This document shows, in pieces, positions 51,598 through 64,000 of a DNA stretch of 64,000 nucleotides. Under the pieces are notes generated by a model. The model made no database searches. It was not told the DNA's origin and was given only the letters and a program-made list of their open reading frames with translations. Position 1 is the first letter of the stretch, and every line of letters starts with the position of its first letter. This DNA comes from Aestuariispira ectoiniformans. GTDB lineage: Bacteria > Pseudomonadota > Alphaproteobacteria > UBA8366 > Aestuariispiraceae. The position numbers and the translations under genes are program-made. The DNA is taken from contig NZ_CP062788.1 in NCBI RefSeq assembly GCF_025136295.1, forward strand, positions 2,931,588-2,995,587, written 5' to 3'.

Positions 51598-53190
51598 GTG
51601 AAAACAAAACTGCTTTCCGCCGTCGCTGGCATTGGTATTGCCATGGCGGTAACCGCCGGTGCACAAGCAAAGACCCTGGTCTATTGCTCAGAGGGTAGCC
51701 CGGAAGGCTTCAACCCGTCCCTGTTCACGGCAGGTACGACCTTTGATGCCTCTTCTCGCCAGATTTACAACAAGTTGGTGGAATTCAAGCGCGGCACGAC
51801 CGAAATTCGTCCGGCGCTGGCTGAATCCTGGAACATCAGCAACGATGGCCTGGAATACACCTTCCACCTGCGCAAAGGTGTGAAATGGCAGACCACGGAC
51901 TTCTTTACGCCGTCGCGTGAATTCAACGCTGACGACGTGGTCTTCAGCTTCAAGCGCCAGTGGGATCCGGAAAACCCGTATCACAAGGTTTCCGGCGGCT
52001 CCTATGAGTATTTTGAATCGATGTCCATGCCGACGTTGATCAAGGACATTGTCAAAGTTGACGATTACACGGTGAAGTTCATTCTCACCGAGCCGCAGGC
52101 GCCGATGATTGCCAACCTGGCAATGGATTTCGCCTCCATCATGTCCAAGGAATATGCGGACAAGATGTTGGAAGCCGGCACGCCTGAACAGCTTGACAAC
52201 AAGCCGGTTGGCACGGGTCCGTTCACCTTCGTCAACTATCAGAAAGACGCGCAGATTCGCTACAAGGCGAACCCGGATTACTGGGAAGGCAAGGCACCGA
52301 TCGATCGCCTGATCTTCTCCATCACCCCCGACGCTTCCGTTCGCTATCAGAAGCTGAAGGCCGGTGAATGTCACGTTATGCCTTATCCGAACCCGGCAGA
52401 CATCCAGGCGATGAAAGCCGATCCAGACATCAACCTGATGGAAAAAGAAGGCCTTAACGTTGGCTATCTCGCTTACAACAGCCTGAAAGCACCGTTCGAT
52501 AACCCGAAGGTCCGTAAGGCCCTGAACATGGCGATCAACAAGAAAGCCATCATCGACGCAGTCTTCCAGGGCGCTGGTAAAGTTGCAAAGAACCCGATTC
52601 CGCCGACAATCTGGTCCTACAACAACGCCACAAAAGACGACCCGTATGATCCGGATGCAGCCAAGAAAATGCTGGAAGAAGCTGGTGTAAGCGGCCTCTC
52701 CACCAAAATCTGGGCAATGCCGGTACAGCGTCCGTACAACCCGAACGCGCGTCGTATGGCCGAACTGATCCAGGCTGACTGGGCGAAAGTAGGCGTCAAA
52801 GCCGAAATCGTTTCCTACGAATGGGGTGAATACCTCAGCCGTTCCAAGGACAAAAACCGTGACGGCGCGGTCCTGTTGGGCTGGACCGGTGACAACGGCG
52901 ACCCCGATAACTTCCTGGCAGTCCTGCTGGGTTGTGACGGCGTTGGTGGTTCCAACCGTGCACAGTGGTGCTACAAGCCTTTCGAAGACCTGATTCAGAA
53001 GGCTAAACAGGTTTCCGACCCTGCAGAGCGTACCAAGCTCTACGAACAGGCACAGCTTGTATTCAAAGAGCAGGCTCCGTGGGCAACCATTGCACACTCT
53101 GTCGTTTACGAACCGGTTCGCAACGAAGTCAAAGACTATCGGATCGACCCGTTCGGTGGCCATATCTTCTACGGGGTTGACCTGAAGTAA
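51598..53190 (+). CDS. dppA: Dipeptide ABC transporter binding protein
   Basis: The 530-residue precursor starts at GTG 51598, just after GGGAGAATACA, with a signal peptide ending AQAK. The mature start [20 protein letters not shown] is the classic DppA block; [25 protein letters not shown] and [20 protein letters not shown] follow the SBP_bac_5 pattern. [17 protein letters not shown] and the C-terminal [18 protein letters not shown] also match enterobacterial DppA, which binds dipeptides and heme or ALA in some species. Length is typical. A hairpin after the stop separates it from dppB. Confidence 0.92.
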
Positions 53191-53215
53191 GATATAACGC
53201 CTTAAAAACACTATA

Positions 53216-53250
53216 AAAAACGGGGAAGGTTTCTGGCCTTCCCCGCTTTT
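53216..53250 (+). terminator. Hairpin between dppA and dppB
   Basis: CGGGGAAGG (53221-53229) pairs with CCTTCCCCG (53237-53245), followed by a short T tract (CTTTTG). It may end most transcripts after dppA or protect its mRNA, allowing excess binding protein. Confidence 0.78.
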
Positions 53251-53280
53251 GCTATATAAGCACGTAAAGTCAGGATCGTT

Positions 53281-54297
53281 ATGATACGGTTTATCTTCAC
53301 AAAGCTGGGGCTCCTCATCCCCACTTTCCTGGGGGTTACCATGATTGCATTCGGTTTCATTCGAATGCTACCCGGTGACCCTGTGGAACTTCTCGCCGGC
53401 GAACGCGGCGTATCCCCTGAACGACACGCCGAACTGATGTCTGCCCTGGGCTTCGACAAACCCATCTGGCAGCAGTATTTCGTCTTCCTAACAGACCTTC
53501 TTCACGGCGACTTCGGTGTCTCCTTCACCACGAAGCAGCCCGTTCTGGAAGAATTCCTCATTCGCTTCCCTGCCACTCTGGAGTTGGCGCTGTGTGCGAT
53601 TATCTTCGCGACACTCCTGGGCTTGCCCGCTGGCATTATTGCTGCGGTCAAACGCGGCTCTGCCTTTGACCACACTTTGATGGGCATCTCCCTGGCCGGC
53701 TATTCAATGCCGATCTTCTGGTGGGGGCTTTTGCTCATCATTTTATTCTCCAACCCCGACATGCTGGGCTGGACGCCGGTTTCGGGCCGGATTTCCGCGC
53801 TATTCTGGGTTGAACCGACAACGGGTTTCATGCTGATCGACACATTGCTCAGCGATGAAAAAGGGTCCTTCCTCTCCGCCGCTAGCCACCTCATCTTGCC
53901 AACCATTGTTCTTGGCACGATTCCGATGGCGGTTATTGCGCGTCAGACCCGTTCCGCGATGCTTGAGGTTCTGGGCGAAGACTATGTCCGCACGGCCAAG
54001 GCCAAGGGTCTCTCGCCTGCGCGGATCATTGGTGTGCACGCCCTGCGTAATGCCCTGATCACCGTTATCACGGTCATCGGCCTTCAGGTTGGTGTGTTGC
54101 TGGCCGGTGCAATTTTGACAGAGACTATTTTCGCTTGGCCCGGAATTGGAAAATGGATGGTCGATTCCATTTCCCGCCGCGACTATTTCTCCGTCCAGGG
54201 CGGTCTTATCCTGATCGCGGCCATCGTCATGGTCGTCAACCTGATCGTTGACTTCATGTACGGCCTGATCAATCCGCGCATCATGCATACGAGGTAA
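53281..54297 (+). CDS. dppB: Dipeptide ABC transporter permease
   Basis: The 338-residue permease begins MIRFIFTKLGLLIPTFLGVTMIAFGFIRMLPGDPVELLAGERG, the N-terminal span and region common to DppB/OppB. About six spans follow; the coupling loop EVLGEDYVRTAKAKGLSPARIIGVHALRNALI lies near 230-260. It forms the inner-membrane pore with DppC. The next gene starts 5 bp later. Confidence 0.95.
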   Translation: MIRFIFTKLGLLIPTFLGVTMIAFGFIRMLPGDPVELLAGERGVSPERHAELMSALGFDKPIWQQYFVFLTDLLHGDFGVSFTTKQPVLEEFLIRFPATLELALCAIIFATLLGLPAGIIAAVKRGSAFDHTLMGISLAGYSMPIFWWGLLLIILFSNPDMLGWTPVSGRISALFWVEPTTGFMLIDTLLSDEKGSFLSAASHLILPTIVLGTIPMAVIARQTRSAMLEVLGEDYVRTAKAKGLSPARIIGVHALRNALITVITVIGLQVGVLLAGAILTETIFAWPGIGKWMVDSISRRDYFSVQGGLILIAAIVMVVNLIVDFMYGLINPRIMHTR

Positions 54298-54302
54298 TTG
54301 GT

Positions 54303-55223
54303 ATGAGCACAGTCGACGCTGGAACCAAGCAAGACCAGATCAGCCAACCCAAAAGTGTTTTGCGTCAGCAACTGCGTGAGTTCTGGTTCTATTTCTCGGA
54401 AAACAACGGCGCCGTTATCGGCCTGTTTTTCCTAATCTTCATTGTCCTGATGGCAGTCTTTGCGGACTTCGTCTCCCCGCACAGTCCGAGTGAGCAGTTT
54501 CGTGATTTCCTGCTCATCCCACCGGCATGGCAGGAAGGCGGCAACTGGTCCTTCATTCTGGGCACGGATGCTGTTGGCCGTGACGTCCTGTCCCGTGTCA
54601 TCCATGGATCGCGGTATTCACTGTACACAGGTGTAATTGTCATCGCCGTAACCCTCACCGTGGGCATCTCCCTTGGTCTGACAGCCGGCTTCATTCGTGG
54701 CTGGTATGAAACCTTGGTAATGCGCCTTATGGACATCATCCTCTCGGTACCTAGCCTGCTGATGGCCTTGGTCCTGGTTGCCGTCCTCGGGCCGGGCCTT
54801 CGCAATGCGATGATCGCGATCTCCATCACTTACCTGCCCCACTACGTTCGTCTGGCCCGTGCGTCCGCCGTATCGGAAAGCGCCCGTGACTATGTCACCG
54901 CCAGCCGCGTTGCCGGTGCAGGCAAGCTGCGTTTGATGTTCATCACCATTCTGCCCAACTGTATGGCGCCGCTGATTGTGCAAGCCACGCTCAGCTTCTC
55001 AACCGCCATTCTCGATGCGGCCGCTCTGGGCTTCCTGGGCATGGGGGCACAGCCGCCGACACCGGAATGGGGCACCATGCTGGCAGCAGCGCGTGAATTC
55101 ATCCTGAGCGCCTGGTGGGTCGTTACCTTCCCGGGCCTGGCTATTCTTCTCACCGTGCTGGCAATCAACCTGATGGGTGATGGCCTGCGCGATGCGCTCG
55201 ACCCGAAAATGAAGAGGTCGTGA
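54303..55223 (+). CDS. dppC: Dipeptide ABC transporter permease
   Basis: The 306-residue second permease has a long polar N-terminus with the OppC_N segment (LREFWFYFSENNGAVIGLFFLIFIVLMAVFAD) and then HSPSEQF and FILGTDAVGRDVLSRVIHGSRYSL, the DppC hallmark. The coupling loop VSESARDYVTASRVAGAGKLRLMFITILPN follows. About six spans. DppD starts 3 bp downstream. Confidence 0.95.
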   Translation: MSTVDAGTKQDQISQPKSVLRQQLREFWFYFSENNGAVIGLFFLIFIVLMAVFADFVSPHSPSEQFRDFLLIPPAWQEGGNWSFILGTDAVGRDVLSRVIHGSRYSLYTGVIVIAVTLTVGISLGLTAGFIRGWYETLVMRLMDIILSVPSLLMALVLVAVLGPGLRNAMIAISITYLPHYVRLARASAVSESARDYVTASRVAGAGKLRLMFITILPNCMAPLIVQATLSFSTAILDAAALGFLGMGAQPPTPEWGTMLAAAREFILSAWWVVTFPGLAILLTVLAINLMGDGLRDALDPKMKRS

Positions 55224-55226
55224 TCC

Positions 55227-56231
55227 ATGAGCTTACTCGATATTAAAAACCTTACAGTCGAGTTCGAAACCGCCCATGGCATGTTCCGTGCCGTCGACGG
55301 GGTCGACCTCGAGGTAAATGAAGGCGAAATCGTCTCCATCGTCGGGGAATCCGGTTCCGGTAAATCCGTGTCTATGCTGGCCCTTATGGGACTGCTGCCC
55401 TGGACAGCGAATATCACCGCCGACCGGATGACATTCGACAACATTGACCTGCTCAAGATTTCGCAACGCGACCGCCGCAAGATCATCGGTAAAGACATTG
55501 CCATGATCTTCCAGGAACCGATGACCAGTCTGAACCCCTGCTTCACCGTTGGGTATCAGATCATGGAAGTCATGAAAAAACACCTGGGCGGCACCCGCAA
55601 GGAACTGGAAAAGCGGGCGATTGAGCTGTTGGGGATGGTCGGTATTCCGGCTCCGGAAAGCCGTCTCAAGACCTATCCCCACCAGATGTCCGGCGGGATG
55701 AACCAGCGTATCATGATTGCCATGATGATCGCCTGTAACCCTCGCCTGCTGATCGCCGACGAGCCGACCACGGCTCTCGACGTGACCATTCAGGCCCAGA
55801 TTCTGGAGCTGTTGGTCGAACTTCAACAGGAAAAGGGCATGGCGCTCGTGCTGATCACCCATGACATGGGTGTGGTTGCCGAGACCGCACAGGAAGTCGT
55901 CGTCCAGTATGCAGGTCAGCAGGTGGAGCGCCAGCATGTTAAAGGGCTGTTCGATGCCCCGCAGCATCCTTACACCCACGCCCTGCTCAGCGCCCTTCCG
56001 GAACGCGTAACCGGTAACCGGTTGCCGTCCATTCCGGGCGTTGTCCCAGGTCTGCTGGACCGTCCGACAGGCTGCCTTTTCAATCCGCGTTGCCAGTTTG
56101 CAACGGAGCATTGCCGTCAGGTAGCTCCCGAAAAACACACAGGCGTGCTTTGCCACTACCCCCTTGTGGACGGCAAACCGACGGGGCATCCGGACTTCGA
56201 TAAAGCGAAAGCAAGCGGAGGGAATGCATAA
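55227..56231 (+). CDS. dppD: Dipeptide ABC transporter ATP-binding protein
   Basis: The 334-residue ATPase has Walker [17 protein letters not shown], signature [16 protein letters not shown] (the LSGGQ motif is MSGGM here) and Walker [14 protein letters not shown]. The C-terminal oligopeptide-transporter segment [15 protein letters not shown] carries cysteines that in DppD homologs bind a [4Fe-4S] cluster. It works with DppF; the stop overlaps the dppF ATG by 1 bp. Confidence 0.94.
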
Positions 56232-57211
56232 TGAGTGCAGAAACTGTACTGCAAGCGAGCGACCTTCGCCGCTACTATGAAGTCAAAGGCGGACTGTTCA
56301 GCAAAGGCGGAACTGTCAAAGCGCTGGACGGCGCCAGCTTTAACCTGGAAGCCGGAAAGACGCTTGCCGTCGTCGGTGAATCCGGTTGCGGCAAGTCGAC
56401 CCTGGCTCGTCTGGTAACCCTGATCGAAGAGCCGACCGAGGGTGAATTGACACTGGGTGGCATGGATGTCCTGAAGGCGCATTCGGCAGAAGACCGCCGG
56501 AAACTTCGCCAGATGGTGCAGATCGTGTTCCAGGACCCATACGGCTCCTTGAACCCGCGCCAGAAGATCAGCACGATCCTGGAGGAACCGCTCAAGATCA
56601 ACACGAATATGTCGTCGTCGGAACGCCGCGAGGCCGTTCTGTCCATGATGTCCCGTGTTGGTTTGCGTCCGGAACAGGCGGATCGCTATCCGCATATGTT
56701 CTCCGGTGGACAGCGTCAACGTGTCGCCATTGCACGTGCGCTGATGCTAAAGCCGAAAATCATCATCCTTGACGAGCCTGTGTCCGCCTTGGACGTGTCC
56801 ATCCAGGCACAGGTCCTGAACCTGCTGGCAGACCTGCAGGAAGAGATGAATTTGGCTTTCCTCTTCATCTCTCATGACCTGTCGGTGGTGCGTCATATCG
56901 CCGACGATATCCTGGTCATGTATCTGGGGCGTCCGGTTGAACGCGGAACGCGGGATGAGATTTTCGCCAACCCGCAGCACCCTTACACGCGCGCCTTGCT
57001 GTCCGCCACACCGATGGCCGACCCGCATCGCAAGCGGGAGCGGATCAAACTGACGGGCGAACTGCCCTCACCTTTGAACCCGCCGACCGGCTGTCCGTTC
57101 CACCCCCGCTGCCCACTGGCCAATGACCGGTGTCACAGCGAGGTTCCCTATCTGAAATCTGCCGGCGGGTCCGAAGTATCCTGCCATGCGGTTGAGGAAG
57201 GCCGGAACTGA
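56231..57211 (+). CDS. dppF: Dipeptide ABC transporter ATP-binding protein
   Basis: The 326-residue ATPase has Walker A GESGCGKSTLARLVTLIE, signature FSGGQRQRVAIARALM and Walker B IIILDEPVSALDV. The C-terminal block GCPFHPRCPLANDRCH contains the clustered cysteines of OppF/DppF. It completes the importer and is followed by a strong terminator. Confidence 0.94.
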   Translation: MSAETVLQASDLRRYYEVKGGLFSKGGTVKALDGASFNLEAGKTLAVVGESGCGKSTLARLVTLIEEPTEGELTLGGMDVLKAHSAEDRRKLRQMVQIVFQDPYGSLNPRQKISTILEEPLKINTNMSSSERREAVLSMMSRVGLRPEQADRYPHMFSGGQRQRVAIARALMLKPKIIILDEPVSALDVSIQAQVLNLLADLQEEMNLAFLFISHDLSVVRHIADDILVMYLGRPVERGTRDEIFANPQHPYTRALLSATPMADPHRKRERIKLTGELPSPLNPPTGCPFHPRCPLANDRCHSEVPYLKSAGGSEVSCHAVEEGRN

Positions 57212-57227
57212 TCAAGGCTGACTAATA

Positions 57228-57256
57228 CAAAGGCGGGCTCCAGGGCCCGCCTTTTT
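57228..57256 (+). terminator. Terminator of the dpp operon, possibly shared
   Basis: AAAGGCGGGC pairs with GCCCGCCTTT across a 6-base loop and is followed by TTTCTTTTT, all between the dpp operon and the convergent RidA-formamidase gene. The A-run on the other side lets it work for both directions. Confidence 0.9.
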
Positions 57257-57270
57257 CTTTTTGGCTTACA

Positions 57271-58470
57271 TTATTTGGCTTCAATCGCGTCCAGCGCCGC
57301 CCTGAATAGCGGCGATTCCGGTTCGTTTAGTCCCTCCACTACAGTGAAGTGATGACGCCCCGGCATTTCGACCCAACGAATATCCGCCTTTCCTTCCCAC
57401 GCTCGCGCCAACAATGCGGACTGCCGATGAAATTCTGCGCTCTCGTCACCGCCAACGGCCAGGGTCACGGGCAGAGCATAGGCTGGTGACTTGTTCACCA
57501 CACTGTTCAGGTCAGCACCGGCTTCTGTCAGTTCAAGAGCGCGGTTCATGCCGGTAAAACGAAGCGGCTCCAGGTCGAAAAGGCCGGAAATCAGGATCAC
57601 ACTCTTGATCAGATCATGCGGCAAGGAAGAAGCGCGCGCAGACCAGTCTGTTGCCGCCATCATCCCGCCCAGATGTCCACCCGCCGAATGTCCGGAGAGA
57701 TGGATTCTCTGGTTGTCGTACCCCCATTTCTCCGCCTGCTTATACAGCAAGGCACAGGCGTCCCGGCACTGCTCTACAATCCGTTCGACAGGCACAGTAG
57801 GGCAAAGGCCGTAATTCGGCAGAGCGACCGCAACACCACTGTCGAGCAAGGCCTCCAGCAGGAAACCATGATCCAGTTTGTCCATTGCCTGCCAGTACCC
57901 GCCATGAATGAATACATGCAGAGGCGGTGTTACGCCGTCATGCCGGTCCGGGACAAATATGTCTATTTTTTCCAGAGGGCCGTCACCATAGGCGATCTCC
58001 GCCGTGCGACGCTCCCGAAACTTCTCCCCCCTGCTCCGCCATTCAGCAAAGATATCCATATGATCCGGCACCGCGGCGCGCGCACTGTATTCACGGTTCA
58101 GGGCCGCACGGGTGAAATCCTTATAGACAGTCTCTTCGGGATCTGTCGGACTGAGGTGGGCAAATCCCTCAACACTGACAAGCGCCTCCTGCGCCAGCAT
58201 TTCCCTGTTCACAGAAACAACGAAATCAGGGATATTGCCGCCCAGAACCTCGCGAAACATCAGATCACGGGCAACGGGATCCTGGTCCCAATCCGCTGCG
58301 TCACGGAGTTGAACAGAAACCGTCTGGAGATGCGGCGGCATCGCGCCCTGCGCGGCCAGGGCCTTGCTCATGTTGATCAGGGCCTGACGCCATTGGGAAA
58401 GAAAATCCGCCCCCTGACCTTCCAGTCCGTAAACTTCGCCTGACCGTATTTCGCTCATAGTCTCGGTCAT
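57271..58470 (-). CDS. RidA-like domain fused to kynurenine formamidase-type alpha/beta hydrolase
   Basis: The 399-residue protein has two domains. Residues about 10-125 resemble the RidA/YjgF fold (GQGADFLSQWRQALINMSKAL; ALVSVEGFAHL), but the conserved substrate arginine expected after the IP dipeptide is replaced (IPDFVV). Residues about 145-399 match animal/yeast-type kynurenine formamidase (AFMID): the oxyanion loop HGGYW at 189, nucleophile S262 in GHSAGGH, FDLEP, D342 in GGDESAEFHRQS and the catalytic histidine in RHHF (373/374). It probably hydrolyses N-formylkynurenine or a related N-formyl or ester compound. The ATG is 3 bp after livF, so it belongs to the LIV operon, which begins in an ACMSD-family gene. 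Confidence 0.85.
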   Translation of the reverse strand: MTETMSEIRSGEVYGLEGQGADFLSQWRQALINMSKALAAQGAMPPHLQTVSVQLRDAADWDQDPVARDLMFREVLGGNIPDFVVSVNREMLAQEALVSVEGFAHLSPTDPEETVYKDFTRAALNREYSARAAVPDHMDIFAEWRSRGEKFRERRTAEIAYGDGPLEKIDIFVPDRHDGVTPPLHVFIHGGYWQAMDKLDHGFLLEALLDSGVAVALPNYGLCPTVPVERIVEQCRDACALLYKQAEKWGYDNQRIHLSGHSAGGHLGGMMAATDWSARASSLPHDLIKSVILISGLFDLEPLRFTGMNRALELTEAGADLNSVVNKSPAYALPVTLAVGGDESAEFHRQSALLARAWEGKADIRWVEMPGRHHFTVVEGLNEPESPLFRAALDAIEAK

Positions 58471-58473
58471 GTT

Positions 58474-59178
58474 CTATACCCCCAGATACCGATGTCCCAA
58501 CTCGGGATCAGCCAACAGGTCCGAAGACGTGCCGGACCACGCAATCTGCCCTTTCTCCATAATGAAATGCCGGTCAGCAATCTTCGCAAGGGCGTCAATA
58601 TTCTTGTCGATAACTAGAATTGACTGCTTTTCCGCCTTCAAAGCCTCCAGGCAGCCCCAAATCTCGTCACGGATCAGCGGTGCCAGACCTTCGGTGGCCT
58701 CATCCAGAATGAGAAGCTTGGGATTGGTCATAAGAGCGCGGCCGACAGCCAACATCTGCTGTTCTCCGCCAGACAGCGAATTCCCCATCTGACTGGCCCG
58801 CTCTTTCAATCGGGGGAACAGGTCATAGACGCGTTCCAGCGACCAGCCTTCCCGCCCATTACCCGTCTTGCGTGCCGTCGCCAGCAGGTTTTCACGCACC
58901 TGCAAAGTGGGGAATATCTGACGGCCTTCCGGCACCAACCCCAAACCGAGGCGTGCGATTTTGAAGGGCGGGCTCTTTTGAACCTCCCGTCCATCAAAGC
59001 AAACCCGACCGGCTTTTGGCGGTGTCAGTCCCATGATCGAACGAACGGTCGTCGTCTTTCCCATTCCGTTCCGGCCCATCAGGGTCACAACTTCCCCCGC
59101 CTTCACTTCAAGACTGGCACCAAACAGGACCTGGCTTGGGCCGTAGGCGGTTTCAATGCTATCAACAACCAGCATCAT
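58474..59178 (-). CDS. LIV-type ABC ATPase LivF-like, second importer
   Basis: The 234-residue ATPase has Walker A GRNGMGKTTTV, signature LSGGEQQMLAVGRAL and Walker B LLILDEATEGLAP; LGLVPEGRQIFPTLQVRENL is the LivF type. Upstream it overlaps livG by 4 bp and downstream the RidA-formamidase gene begins 3 bp after its stop, so they form one operon. Confidence 0.93.
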   Translation of the reverse strand: MMLVVDSIETAYGPSQVLFGASLEVKAGEVVTLMGRNGMGKTTTVRSIMGLTPPKAGRVCFDGREVQKSPPFKIARLGLGLVPEGRQIFPTLQVRENLLATARKTGNGREGWSLERVYDLFPRLKERASQMGNSLSGGEQQMLAVGRALMTNPKLLILDEATEGLAPLIRDEIWGCLEALKAEKQSILVIDKNIDALAKIADRHFIMEKGQIAWSGTSSDLLADPELGHRYLGV

Positions 59179-59927
59179 GCTTCCTCCCCAAGATAGGCTT
59201 GGCGGACTTGCTCATTATTTCGAATGGCATCGGGGGTTCCGGTGGCAATCGTATGGCCATAGACCAGCACGCTGATCCGGTCAGCCAACGCAAAAACCGC
59301 ATCCATGTCATGTTCAACCAACAGCATGGTTACCTTGCCGCGCAGTCGTTGCAAAACATCGACCATGCTTTGCGATTCCTCTACCCCCATGCCTGCCATC
59401 GGCTCATCCAGCAGCAACATGACAGGTTTCATCGCCATCGCCATGGCAAGTTCCAACTGACGCTGCTCGCCATGCGCCAGATTTCTTACCAGTTCGTTCG
59501 CGCGAGCGGCCAGACCAACGGTTTCCAGGGCCTCGAAAGCCGGGTCCCTGAGTTCCTTTTGCTTGCGGGCCTTTTTCCAGAATTTGAAGCTGTGCCCTGT
59601 ATGGGCCTGCACTGCCATGGCGACATTATCCAATGCCGTGAAATTAGGCAGCACAGAAGTGATCTGGAAAGAACGCGCCAGCCCCAGATGCGGGCGTTGA
59701 TGCACCGGCATATCGGTAATGTCATGACCATCGAAGAGGACAACGCCCTCGTCAGGCGTCAACTCGCCCGATAACTGTGAGATCAGCGTCGTCTTGCCCG
59801 CCCCATTCGGGCCGATCAGGGCATGGATATGCCCCTTTTCCACCGAAAGGTTCAGGTCATCCGTCGCTTTCAGCGCACCGAAGCTCTTCCGAAGGCCTTT
59901 GACGTCAAGCATGATTTCCTCAACCAT
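59175..59927 (-). CDS. LIV-type ABC ATPase LivG-like, second importer
   Basis: A 250-residue ATPase: Walker A GPNGAGKTTLISQLSGE, signature LAHGEQRQLELAMAMA, Walker B LLLDEPMAGMG. ATG 59927 is preferred because a near-perfect AGGAGG site lies 6 bases upstream; a longer reading would overlap livM by 56 bp. With ATG 59927 the overlap is only 8 bp. It energises uptake with the LivF-like partner. Confidence 0.93.
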   Translation of the reverse strand: MVEEIMLDVKGLRKSFGALKATDDLNLSVEKGHIHALIGPNGAGKTTLISQLSGELTPDEGVVLFDGHDITDMPVHQRPHLGLARSFQITSVLPNFTALDNVAMAVQAHTGHSFKFWKKARKQKELRDPAFEALETVGLAARANELVRNLAHGEQRQLELAMAMAMKPVMLLLDEPMAGMGVEESQSMVDVLQRLRGKVTMLLVEHDMDAVFALADRISVLVYGHTIATGTPDAIRNNEQVRQAYLGEEA

Positions 59928-60930
59928 CTTCCGCCTCCTTGCCGACGAGAATCCCGTAGATACCGCGCCGTGCATAAAGAACGATGATGATCAGCAAGGG
60001 GCCGAAAATGAACCGCCAATGTTCCTTCATTCCGTCCAGACCGATCGCCTCCAGTCCCTGGGGAAGGAATTCCTCCATCATCAGGAAGGCGACCGCCCCG
60101 AAAACCGGGCCGTAAAGCGTACCGATCCCGCCCAGGATGACCATGACCATGATCTCACCGGACTTGCTCCAATGCAGGATATCAGGGCTGACAAATTCAT
60201 TCTGGTTGACCATCAATGCCCCGGCCAAACCGGCCCCGGCCCCCGCAATGATAAAGGCCACCAGCTTGTATTGCATCACCGGGTAGCCTAGTGCCGCCAT
60301 ACGGCGTTCATTCTGTTTGCAGCCGCGAATAACCATGCCGAAGCGGGAATTCACCACCTGACGACATAGGAACAGGAAACCGATCAGGGCGACAAAACAG
60401 ATGTAGTAGAAAGTGACATCATCATGCATGTCGAACCCGAAAAACTCGTTCCGGTCATACAGCACCAGCCCATCATCCCCGCCATATTGCTCCAGCGAGA
60501 TGAAGAAGAAAAACAGCATCTGGGCAAAGGCCAGCGTGATCATAATAAAATAGACGCCACCGGTCCTCAGGCTGAAAAAACCGATGACCAAAGCGGCGAC
60601 TGCGGCCAGGATAACAGACGCAACCCAGGCGAAAGGTGCAAAGTTGCTCCCCTCCATGCCGAAGATCGTGCTGCCGTCAAAACTGTGAAAAGCCAGAATT
60701 CCCGTCACATAGGCGCCAACGCCGAAAAAGGCTGCATGACCGAAACTGACCATCCCGCCATACCCCAGGATCAGATCCAGACTGATTGCAGCCAGAGCAT
60801 AAATCAGCACACGGCTGAAACTGAAAACCAGAAAGGTGTGGCCGCTGGCTTCTGCAATTGCCGGTAACAAAGCCAGCGCAAGCAGGCTCAGGCCGACGAC
60901 AATATTCTTGCGTGTTAATTTATCAGTCAT
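59920..60930 (-). CDS. LIV-type ABC permease LivM-like, second importer
   Basis: A 336-residue permease with about nine spans: ISLDLILGYGGMVSFGHAAFFGVGAYVTGIL is the LivM block, and the coupling loop NERRMAALGYPVMQYKLVAFIIAG lies near 210-235. The extra loop FHSFDGSTIFGMEGS after the third span and the tail KEAEDG are seen in importers of aromatic acids. It forms the pore with the LivH-like subunit, whose gene overlaps by 8 bp. Confidence 0.92.
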   Translation of the reverse strand: MTDKLTRKNIVVGLSLLALALLPAIAEASGHTFLVFSFSRVLIYALAAISLDLILGYGGMVSFGHAAFFGVGAYVTGILAFHSFDGSTIFGMEGSNFAPFAWVASVILAAVAALVIGFFSLRTGGVYFIMITLAFAQMLFFFFISLEQYGGDDGLVLYDRNEFFGFDMHDDVTFYYICFVALIGFLFLCRQVVNSRFGMVIRGCKQNERRMAALGYPVMQYKLVAFIIAGAGAGLAGALMVNQNEFVSPDILHWSKSGEIMVMVILGGIGTLYGPVFGAVAFLMMEEFLPQGLEAIGLDGMKEHWRFIFGPLLIIIVLYARRGIYGILVGKEAEDG

Positions 60931-61837
60931 GGGCCGGGAACAAGCCTTTCGGACGCCAGATCAGGACGAGCGCCATCAACAGGTAGATCGCCATGGATGA
61001 TACCCCCGCACCAATGCCGTCGGCCTGTGCCGGGGGAAGGAAGAGTTTGAGCATGTTCGGCAAAAAGGCACGCCCCAGGGTATCGACAAGTCCGACGAAT
61101 ATTGCACCGACCAGCGCACCGCGGATGGACCCGATGCCGCCGATCACGATGACAACGAAAGTCAGAATGAGGATGCTTTCCCCCATCCCTGCTTCGATTG
61201 AACTGGTCGGACCGGCCATCACACCGGCCAGCCCCGCAAGCAATGCGCCAAAGCCGAAGACCAAGGTGTAAAGAAGGCGAATGTCAACGCCCAGCGCGCC
61301 AACCATCTCGCGATGGGTCGCACCGGCACGGATCAACATGCCGATCCGCGTTTTTGAAATCAGGAAATAAAGCGAAACCGCCACCAGCAGGCCAACGGCC
61401 AGCACCACCAGCCGGAAGACCGGGTACGGCACGCCGGGGATAATCTCAACCAGCCCCTGCAGCATTTCCGGTACGTCCATTGCAACCGGATTGCGCCCCC
61501 AGATCATGACGGTCGCTTCGTTAAAAAATAGGATCAGACCGAATGTTGCCAGAACCTGGTCCAGGTGATCGCGGGCATAAAGCTTTCGCATCACCAGGAA
61601 TTCCATGACCATTCCAACAATCGCCGCAGCCGCCAGGGCAGCCAAAAGGCCCAGGAAAAACGATCCACTGGCCATGGAAACCGTGGCTGCCACATAGGCC
61701 CCGATCATATAAAGTGACCCGTGAGCCAGATTGATGACGCCCATGATCCCGAAGATCAGGGTCAAGCCACCGGCCAGCAAAAACAAGGTCACGCCGAGCT
61801 GAAGCCCGTTGAGCATCTGCTCCAGAAACAAAATCAT
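60923..61837 (-). CDS. LIV-type ABC permease LivH-like, second importer
   Basis: A 304-residue permease with about eight spans. LNGLQLGVTLFLLAGGLTLIFGIMGVINLAHGSLYMIGAYVAATV is the family start, and ALVGAIFVGLVDTLGRAFLP the C-terminal pore part; ends IWRPKGLFPAHD. The binding-protein gene is 91 bp upstream, with a hairpin between. Confidence 0.92.
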   Translation of the reverse strand: MILFLEQMLNGLQLGVTLFLLAGGLTLIFGIMGVINLAHGSLYMIGAYVAATVSMASGSFFLGLLAALAAAAIVGMVMEFLVMRKLYARDHLDQVLATFGLILFFNEATVMIWGRNPVAMDVPEMLQGLVEIIPGVPYPVFRLVVLAVGLLVAVSLYFLISKTRIGMLIRAGATHREMVGALGVDIRLLYTLVFGFGALLAGLAGVMAGPTSSIEAGMGESILILTFVVIVIGGIGSIRGALVGAIFVGLVDTLGRAFLPNMLKLFLPPAQADGIGAGVSSMAIYLLMALVLIWRPKGLFPAHD

Positions 61838-61928: not shown

Positions 61929-63101
61929 TTACATGCTGCAGTCTTTGGCATAGACGTCCATGTGATCTTTGAGGACCACGCCAACCGTCTTGTTCACCAA
62001 AGTACCGTCTGCCTGTTTCTCAACGATACGGCTGTACCAGTCGTTAATCGGGTGATTGTTCTGGGCAAATTTAAACTTGCCGCGGACTGACTCAAAATCA
62101 GCCTTTTTCAAAGCCTTACGCAAGCCTTCCTTATCCGACACATCACCATTCACAGCCTTCAGAGCACTGGCAATCAACTTGGCGGTATCGTACCCCTGGG
62201 ACGCATAAACCGTCGGCACGCGATTGTATTTGGCGTTGAACCCGGCCAGGAACTTTTTGTTCGCAGCGTTGTCCAGGTCGTGGTTCCAGTGCGATGCACT
62301 GCGGACACCAACTGCCGCATCCCCGACTGCCGCCATGATTTTCGCATCCATGGACGGAGCCGCAACGACCAGCGGCGTCGTATCCTTGAAGCCACCCTGA
62401 TCATATTGTTTCAGGAAGTTGATCCCCATGCCGCCCGGCAGGAAGTCAAAAACCATTTCCGGTTTTGCGTCACGGATCTGGGCCAGTTCCGCAGAGTAAT
62501 CGGCCTGCCCCAGCTTGGTATAGACCTCGCCTACGATTTCACCACCAAACTCACGTTTGAAACCGGCAAGCGCATCGCGACCGGCCGGATAGTTCGGCGC
62601 AAGGATAAACGCTTTTTTGTAACCGAGCTGCTTGGCATAGGCACCGGCCGCTTCATGCAGCGTGTCATTCTGCCAGGATGCAACAAAGTAATTCTGATTA
62701 CATTTCTTGCCCGCAAAGAGACTGGGGCCTGCATTCGGGCTGACATAAATTTTGTCTTCGCGCAGAACAGACGGAACAACCGCACCGGCCACATTGGAGA
62801 AGATAATACCGGTCAGAATCTCAGCACCGTCACGCTTCATGAAGCGCTCCGCCAGCTGTTTGCCCGTACCGGGCTTCCGCCCGTCGTCTTCGACCAGGAC
62901 TTCAACGGGAACACCGCCCAGTTTACCGCCCTCTTCCTCGACGGCCAGCATAAAGCCGTCACGAACGTCCTGCCCCAAATAACCGGCTCCGGTCGACAAA
63001 GTGGTAACCATGCCAATCTTCACAGCATCAGCAGACAGTGCTGGTGAAGCCATTAATGCGACACCTGCTGCTACTCCGAGCAGCATTTTTGATAATTTCA
63101 T
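61929..63101 (-). CDS. LIV-type ABC binding protein, second importer
   Basis: The 390-residue precursor has a signal peptide ending PALSA. Mature protein starts DAVKIGMVTTLSTGAGYLGQDVRDGFMLAVEEEGGKLGG, a start seen in binding proteins for aromatic or branched compounds. GIIFSNVAGAVVPSVL carries ligand contacts, and YVSPNAGPSLFAGKKCNQNYFVASWQND is a longer loop with a cysteine. A family-typical C-terminus ends DHMDVYAKDCSM with a probable disulfide. Gene context (ACMSD-like and formamidase-like enzymes) suggests kynurenine, formylkynurenine, 3-hydroxyanthranilate or a similar aromatic ligand; this is inference. Confidence 0.88.
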   Translation of the reverse strand: MKLSKMLLGVAAGVALMASPALSADAVKIGMVTTLSTGAGYLGQDVRDGFMLAVEEEGGKLGGVPVEVLVEDDGRKPGTGKQLAERFMKRDGAEILTGIIFSNVAGAVVPSVLREDKIYVSPNAGPSLFAGKKCNQNYFVASWQNDTLHEAAGAYAKQLGYKKAFILAPNYPAGRDALAGFKREFGGEIVGEVYTKLGQADYSAELAQIRDAKPEMVFDFLPGGMGINFLKQYDQGGFKDTTPLVVAAPSMDAKIMAAVGDAAVGVRSASHWNHDLDNAANKKFLAGFNAKYNRVPTVYASQGYDTAKLIASALKAVNGDVSDKEGLRKALKKADFESVRGKFKFAQNNHPINDWYSRIVEKQADGTLVNKTVGVVLKDHMDVYAKDCSM

Positions 63102-63171: not shown

Positions 63172-64000
63172 TCAAGCAGTAGACGCGGCAATCATATCGG
63201 CTTGCGTGAGCGCTAGCCACTGCCGTGCATTGCCGGATAGCATTTTTTTCCTTTGTCCCAGAGACAGATAAGGGTTTTCCCTGATCAGGCGTCCCATCTG
63301 TTGCTCCCCCAGGGGAAAAGGATAGTCCGTCCCGAACATGACGCGATCCTCCCCCATAACATCCGCTAGCAGCTTCAATGCCCCATCATCAAAAACCGCG
63401 GAATCCACATAGAAACGGTTCACATAGGATGACGGCGGGCTCGGGCAATCCTGCCGTACGATATCCCGGTGCCGCCAGGCGTTATCCACGCGGCCCAACA
63501 AATAGGCAAAGCTCCCCCCACCATGGGCGAAACAGATGCGCAGACTGTCCGGCAGCCGTTCAAACGCCCCGGACAAGATCAGGGACAGAATGGACAATTG
63601 AGTTTCGGCCGGCATGGCGACCAGCCAGGGCAGCATATATTTGGGCATTCGATCCCGCGCCATCATATCCCAAGGGTGGACAAGGACGGCAGCCCCAACA
63701 TCCGCACAATGCTGCAGAATTGTAATCAGCCCTTCGTCATCCAGGTTCTTGTCGCCGACGTGGTTACCGATCTGCACCCCCAGATGACCACAGGCCACGG
63801 CACGCGACACCTCCTCACAGGCCAGGTCGATATCCTGTAGAGGAACCTGCGCCAGGGCCCTCAGACGCCCTCTACCACGCTCACATAGCGCCAAGGCCGC
63901 ATCGTTAAAGATCTTTGCACATTCCAAAGCCTGTTCGGCGGGCCGCTCATAGGCGAATAACACCGGCGTAGCACAAATGAGCTGCATATCCACGCCGTCA
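63172..64000 (-). CDS. ACMSD-family amidohydrolase (aminocarboxymuconate semialdehyde decarboxylase-like), N-terminus outside window
   Basis: An open minus-strand frame enters from beyond the window and stops at 63172, giving 275 residues or so. It matches ACMSD closely: [57 protein letters not shown], and [14 protein letters not shown] hold the later zinc ligands (H in HPWD, H in FAHGGG, D in GTDY). The first H-x-H metal motif is missing only because the N-terminus is cut off. ACMSD decarboxylates 2-amino-3-carboxymuconate semialdehyde, a step in tryptophan/3-hydroxyanthranilate breakdown. The importer genes follow after 70 bp on the same strand. Confidence 0.9.

Follow-up and report, generated by a model that had tools for sequence, protein, structure and literature searches.

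A conserved fusion of a shortened RidA-like domain to an AFMID-type hydrolase, closing a transporter and 3-hydroxyanthranilate operon of Aestuariispira ectoiniformans

The window analysed here is a stretch of 64,000 nucleotides of the Aestuariispira ectoiniformans genome (contig NZ_CP062788.1, positions 2,931,588 to 2,995,587). Toward its end, a 399-codon frame runs from ATG to stop without an internal stop (Table 1); the initial annotation had read both a RidA-like part and an AFMID-type formamidase in it, and this one frame does hold a RidA-like domain and an AFMID-type hydrolase, with the minus strand now added. The genome has one copy of this gene. Its ATG lies 3 nt past the stop codon of the preceding gene, which encodes a LivF-type ATPase. 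At its other end, a palindromic terminator-like stem separates it from a convergent, plus-strand transporter operon of the oligopeptide/dipeptide type (51598-57211: a family-5 solute-binding protein, two permeases and two ATPases). A 275-aa plus-strand frame that lies antisense to the fused gene (57616-58443) is taken to be a shadow frame.

The operon extends past the window end, where (at L128:1760-5277) the ACMSD-like gene is joined by genes for a 3-hydroxyanthranilate dioxygenase, a standalone RidA and a 2-hydroxymuconic-type semialdehyde dehydrogenase. The order is thus: semialdehyde dehydrogenase, RidA, 3-hydroxyanthranilate dioxygenase, ACMSD-like protein, Liv transporter, fused gene. 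The dioxygenase scores 277 bits against an NCBIfam cut-off of 220, and the aldehyde dehydrogenase passes the threshold of the model for 2-hydroxymuconic semialdehyde dehydrogenase. By general knowledge of the pathway, the ACMSD-like protein would be expected to serve as ACMSD, the aldehyde dehydrogenase as aminomuconate semialdehyde dehydrogenase and the standalone RidA as 2-aminomuconate deaminase. A link of the fused gene to 3-hydroxyanthranilate and 2-aminomuconate genes had been proposed from the window sequence, and the dioxygenase, the semialdehyde dehydrogenase and the RidA presumed to be of the 2-aminomuconate deaminase type, all found beyond the window, bear it out.

Table 1. Features of the fused gene and of the operon that it closes (window coordinates)
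Feature	Coordinates	Strand	Basis or remark
Palindromic terminator-like stem	57229..57254		between fused gene and convergent plus-strand transporter operon
Fused gene, RidA-like domain and AFMID-type hydrolase, 399 aa	57271..58470	minus	last gene of operon
AFMID/KFase-type alpha/beta-hydrolase domain, residues 113-399	57274..58134	minus	profile and structure comparison
H374, invariant, probable catalytic histidine	57349..57351	minus	alignment
E343, invariant acid, probable third triad member	57442..57444	minus	alignment
Nucleophile S262 (GHSAGG)	57685..57687	minus	alignment
HGGYW oxyanion-hole motif, residues 189-193	57892..57906	minus	alignment
Shortened RidA-like domain, residues 9-101, strand-helix-strand-helix-strand-strand, without N-terminal hairpin	58168..58446	minus	profile and model
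F83, RidA substrate-arginine place (Met in nearly all standalone relatives)	58222..58224	minus	alignment
LivF-type ABC ATPase	58474..59178	minus	gene preceding the fused gene
LivG-type ABC ATPase, start codon uncertain	59175..59975	minus	sequence reading
LivM-type permease	59920..60930	minus	sequence reading
LivH-type permease	60923..61837	minus	sequence reading
Periplasmic binding protein (Peripla_BP_6)	61929..63101	minus	domain match
ACMSD-like amidohydrolase (Amidohydro_2), cut by window end	63172..64000	minus	domain match

The C-terminal part is an alpha/beta-hydrolase by domain search: it matches Abhydrolase_3 (E 4e-15) and BD-FAE (E 5e-19). Its nearest solved structures are 9n8r and 2pbl (Z 36-39, 30-36% identity); Drosophila kynurenine formamidase ranks after these (Z 30-31 over 275-279 residues, 22% identity). 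The AFMID-type motif set of the initial annotation stands with one correction: HGGYW (H189-W193), S262 and H374 are invariant among the 18 fused proteins collected, while the conserved acid that follows S262 is not D342 but E343, which does not vary in the 18 fused or in 43 aligned sequences. The alignments suggest that S262, E343 and H374 probably form the catalytic triad. RidA is not the sole fusion partner of such hydrolases: a 527-aa frame of a SAR324 metagenome-assembled genome (L051:6343-7926) joins one to a LivF ATPase.

Identifying the N-terminal part takes more than its own sequence. Residues 1-144 by themselves score 14.8 bits (E 0.029) against Pfam Ribonuc_L-PSP (PF01042), below the cut-off of 27.3, so that the single sequence is no proof of a RidA relationship. 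The family of sequences says more. Comparing 18 fused N-domains with five standalone RidA proteins by hhalign gives a probability of 98.1 and E 9.8e-14 over 74 columns, and the fused N-domain profile picks up standalone frames of 130-200 aa across the Alphaproteobacteria (down to E 1.5e-15) and across the phylum as well; a PDB profile search identifies these standalone proteins as RidA (E 5.5e-17). AlphaFold predicts the whole fused protein with a pLDDT of 89.6 and a pTM of 0.91, the N-domain lying mostly at about 80-90. When the N-domain is modelled alone, from fused sequences only (pLDDT 70.6), RidA/YjgF structures head the lists of both structure comparisons (Foldseek E 3e-5; best Z 9.9), and residues 23-128 of E. 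coli YjgF (1qu9) align to residues 5-103 of the model with Z 9.5. Searching PDB sequences with the N-domain profile places cytochrome b562 chains first (E about 0.02) and the YjgF protein HI0719 at E 0.17; the cytochrome match is judged to be chance, because the structure and profile-profile comparisons agree on RidA. On these comparisons of profiles and of a predicted structure, assignment of the N-terminal part to RidA is confirmed. The chance that residues 1-140 would prove unlike RidA, which was raised when the domain was proposed, did not materialize; what has changed is the extent of the domain, which occupies about residues 9-101 instead of 10-125.

The domain is an incomplete RidA. Both the alignment and the model begin at the strand after the N-terminal hairpin, and the fused N-domains accordingly lack the region that holds the conserved tyrosine. 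None of the 18 fused proteins has the PAR motif, and the place of the substrate arginine is taken by other residues (F83 here), as had been noticed from the window sequence. At the catalytic-glutamate position the fused family has E, D, S, A, T or R; A. ectoiniformans retains a glutamate (E101). The hairpin, including GY.NG, is retained in about 40 standalone relatives, as is VEIEATAV; nearly all of these proteins have methionine at the substrate-arginine place. The fused proteins conserve P45, R73, E74 and G78 (R73 invariant, E74 nearly so), and R73-E74 correspond to a Y-R-E/D motif of the standalone Rid relatives.

If the fused domain lacks so much of a RidA active site, is it a decaying remnant? 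This is rejected: dN/dS of the N-domain lies between 0.08 and 0.60, below 1 in all nine fused-gene pairs, and exceeds that of the C-domain in each pair. Purifying selection implies that the domain still matters. It is maintained, though probably not as a classical deaminase: catalysis appears unlikely, because the domain has neither the first hairpin nor a substrate arginine and the catalytic glutamate is unconserved in the family. Some residual activity is possible in the A. ectoiniformans protein, since it keeps E101. That glutamate, together with the 2-aminomuconate chemistry of the pathway and the purifying selection in related fused pairs, is what speaks for a bifunctional enzyme whose RidA domain would act on a downstream enamine or imine (2-aminomuconate or its semialdehyde). 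The missing tyrosine hairpin and arginine and the variable glutamate weigh against it, as do the separate RidA in the operon and the lack of a profile match between the N-domain and that RidA (a single-sequence test), and we consider it improbable. A role as a second 2-aminomuconate deaminase, at which the initial annotation had hinted, is likewise disfavoured by the separate RidA and the lost residues; the fused domain also groups with another Rid subfamily. RidA proteins bind small ligands at subunit interfaces, and the N-domain might instead sense an aromatic amine and tune the hydrolase allosterically. Conservation of P45, R73, E74 and G78 in the 18 fused proteins and the match of R73-E74 to the Y-R-E/D motif would fit such a module, but the absent strands take away part of the usual site, and its chances are also slim.

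A frame error or chimera is ruled out, since 18 diverged proteins have the same layout. Of 14 sampled genomes of the family to which A. ectoiniformans belongs, 12 carry the full-length fusion (its own and 11 of 13 others); three Halomonas and three Hyphomicrobiales with the fusion came to light when named genomes were scanned. Even samples of 385 genomes of the class and 398 of the phylum yield it only in the own family, and it is on that account rare. When 68 hydrolase domains are placed in a tree, a single branch sets off those of the 18 fused proteins from the rest (one change; SH-aLRT 95, in a quick tree made without bootstrap). The fusion is thus genuine, conserved in Alphaproteobacteria and Halomonas, and rare; collecting homologues had been proposed as a check, and they keep the N-terminal part.

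The operon context travels less well. Three Hyphomicrobiales have the fused gene after a Liv operon in the same order, with a 3-hydroxyanthranilate dioxygenase homologue nearby; most other family members have it in unrelated neighbourhoods without a dioxygenase nearby. With the operon's own ACMSD-like gene as query, no match was found in the neighbourhoods that were read for other fused genes, and the idea that the fusion always stands near ACMSD genes falls. At a second locus of genome G001 (L046:7529-14895), a 3-hydroxyanthranilate dioxygenase homologue and TRAP-like transporter genes occur together with a stretch similar to the hydrolase, and this stretch shares its strand with an 870-aa frame.

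Where did the RidA part come from? Its closest relatives are a standalone Rid subfamily of 2-aminobenzoyl-CoA (anthranilate) clusters (L031, L092, L108 and L160, for example). Of 18 neighbourhoods read for this subfamily, 11 contain genes of that cluster, such as homologues of the 2-aminobenzoyl-CoA monooxygenase or of the aminobenzoate-CoA ligase (named from sequence reading and homology to Bradyrhizobium loci), some with a Liv-type transporter in addition. Members with methionine at the substrate-arginine place lie inside such clusters at L160, L161, L162, L167, L169, L170, L171 and L173-L176. Several arrangements may hint at how the fusion came about: an unfused RidA frame ends at the start of a standalone AFMID-type hydrolase (L092:9564-9986), a standalone RidA gene stands directly upstream of another (L176:7619-7996), each in the order of the fusion, and in G003 and G005, the family members that lack the fusion, the two genes are separate but share an anthranilate cluster that includes a Liv transporter. 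Given these arrangements, the joining of neighbouring RidA and hydrolase genes would be the simplest origin.

What the hydrolase acts on is a separate question. The initial annotation's name, kynurenine formamidase, is apt for the AFMID-type fold and motifs, but may be wrong for the substrate. In A. ectoiniformans a classical KynB (275 bits, cut-off 223) is encoded next to tryptophan dioxygenase, at a distance of over 1 Mb from the fused gene, and a kynureninase lies elsewhere in the genome; three genomes with the fused gene and a 3-hydroxyanthranilate dioxygenase (G099, G101, G103), drafts or metagenome assemblies among them, yielded neither tryptophan dioxygenase nor kynureninase. The name is doubtful on both counts, and they also suggest that in its own operon the enzyme may act on an acylated (hydroxy)anthranilate. 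An analogue for such chemistry is Amq, the N-acetylanthranilate amidase of quinaldine degraders, as cited in PMC3534580.

The C-domain could, for all that, simply be the N-formylkynurenine formamidase of tryptophan breakdown, with RidA as an accessory and the 3-hydroxyanthranilate neighbours finishing the same pathway. Its fold is that of Drosophila kynurenine formamidase, in one genome (G043) the gene immediately after tryptophan dioxygenase encodes a standalone homologue, and A. ectoiniformans possesses tryptophan dioxygenase and kynureninase. The Halomonas genomes with the fusion have both these enzymes, and a KynB-type cyclase was not found in them; the Halomonas fused enzyme could, for this reason, be an N-formylkynurenine formamidase. 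Against this as a general account stand the distant KynB of A. ectoiniformans and the gene absences in G099, G101 and G103, to which two further genomes (G007, G012) add, neither kynureninase nor tryptophan dioxygenase having been found there either (several of these genomes are drafts and may be incomplete). Nor was a kynurenine monooxygenase, as source of 3-hydroxyanthranilate, recognised among the three FAD_binding_3 matches of A. ectoiniformans at E <= 1e-10, which read as UbiH-like, PnpA-like (by closest solved structure) and 2-aminobenzoyl-CoA monooxygenase; this falls short of full exclusion. On balance the tryptophan account appears unlikely, though it deserves more credence than the active or the ligand-sensing RidA.

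The reading that we prefer, with somewhat better than even confidence, is an aryl-formamidase of a (hydroxy)anthranilate pathway that carries a structural RidA domain. A two-domain enzyme would close the transporter and 3-hydroxyanthranilate operon; its serine hydrolase would take a formyl or other small acyl group off an ortho-amino aryl compound, which could be N-formylkynurenine, although in this operon an N-acylated (hydroxy)anthranilate imported by the Liv-type transporter is the likelier substrate; and the freed amine would enter the route of dioxygenase, ACMSD, semialdehyde dehydrogenase and deaminase. The N-domain would have been captured from a RidA gene of the anthraniloyl-CoA-cluster type adjoining such a hydrolase gene. 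Without its first hairpin and ligand arginine it would probably serve in assembly or capping of the hydrolase and not in deamination. A bolder version, which we think rather unlikely, has the RidA domain repurposed as a cap or ligand-sensing module and the hydrolase newly specific for acylated 3-hydroxyanthranilate; if true, this would add to the catabolism of aromatic amines a new enzyme with two domains, apart from tryptophan degradation.

The conserved, single-branch fusion would connect Rid proteins with the hydrolysis of arylamides during (hydroxy)anthranilate breakdown. It also carries a warning: AFMID-like bacterial hydrolases should not be annotated as kynurenine formamidases by fold alone. 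The Rid subfamily of the 2-aminobenzoyl-CoA clusters, for its part, may deaminate the enamine that the 2-aminobenzoyl-CoA pathway yields (on this product see PMC3534580). Fusions of Rid domains with each other have been described (PMC4433059); a fusion of RidA with an AFMID-type hydrolase is not mentioned in the literature searched, in keeping with the early impression that no such pairing had been described.

How, then, does the fused protein compare with known systems? With the Drosophila kynurenine formamidase (PDB 4e11/4e14/4e15), of AFMID type, it has the fold and the HGGYW and GHSAG motifs in common; the Drosophila enzyme has no RidA domain, the acid of the fused protein is a glutamate, and the operon context differs. 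Closest in solved structure are two standalone bacterial hydrolases, 2pbl of Silicibacter and 9n8r (Lipase 1 of Pseudomonas chlororaphis), both without an N-terminal RidA domain. We know of no Amq fused to RidA. That enzyme, cited in PMC3534580, belongs to the alpha/beta hydrolases and has an acylated anthranilate as its substrate, within an anthranilate pathway; the analogy drawn with it is a functional one. The 2-aminomuconate deaminase AmnE (PMC6742747, PDB 6izh) shares with the fused protein the Rid family and the pathway neighbourhood, but the presumed member of its type is the operon's standalone RidA, to which the fused N-domain, as a single sequence, has no match. With the RidA/YjgF family at large the N-domain shares its fold, having lost the N-terminal hairpin, had its arginine replaced and become joined to a hydrolase. 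Nearest of all in sequence, with the Y-R-E/D motif in common, are the standalone Rid proteins of the 2-aminobenzoyl-CoA clusters: complete RidA proteins with hairpin, catalytic glutamate and methionine at the arginine place, and unfused.
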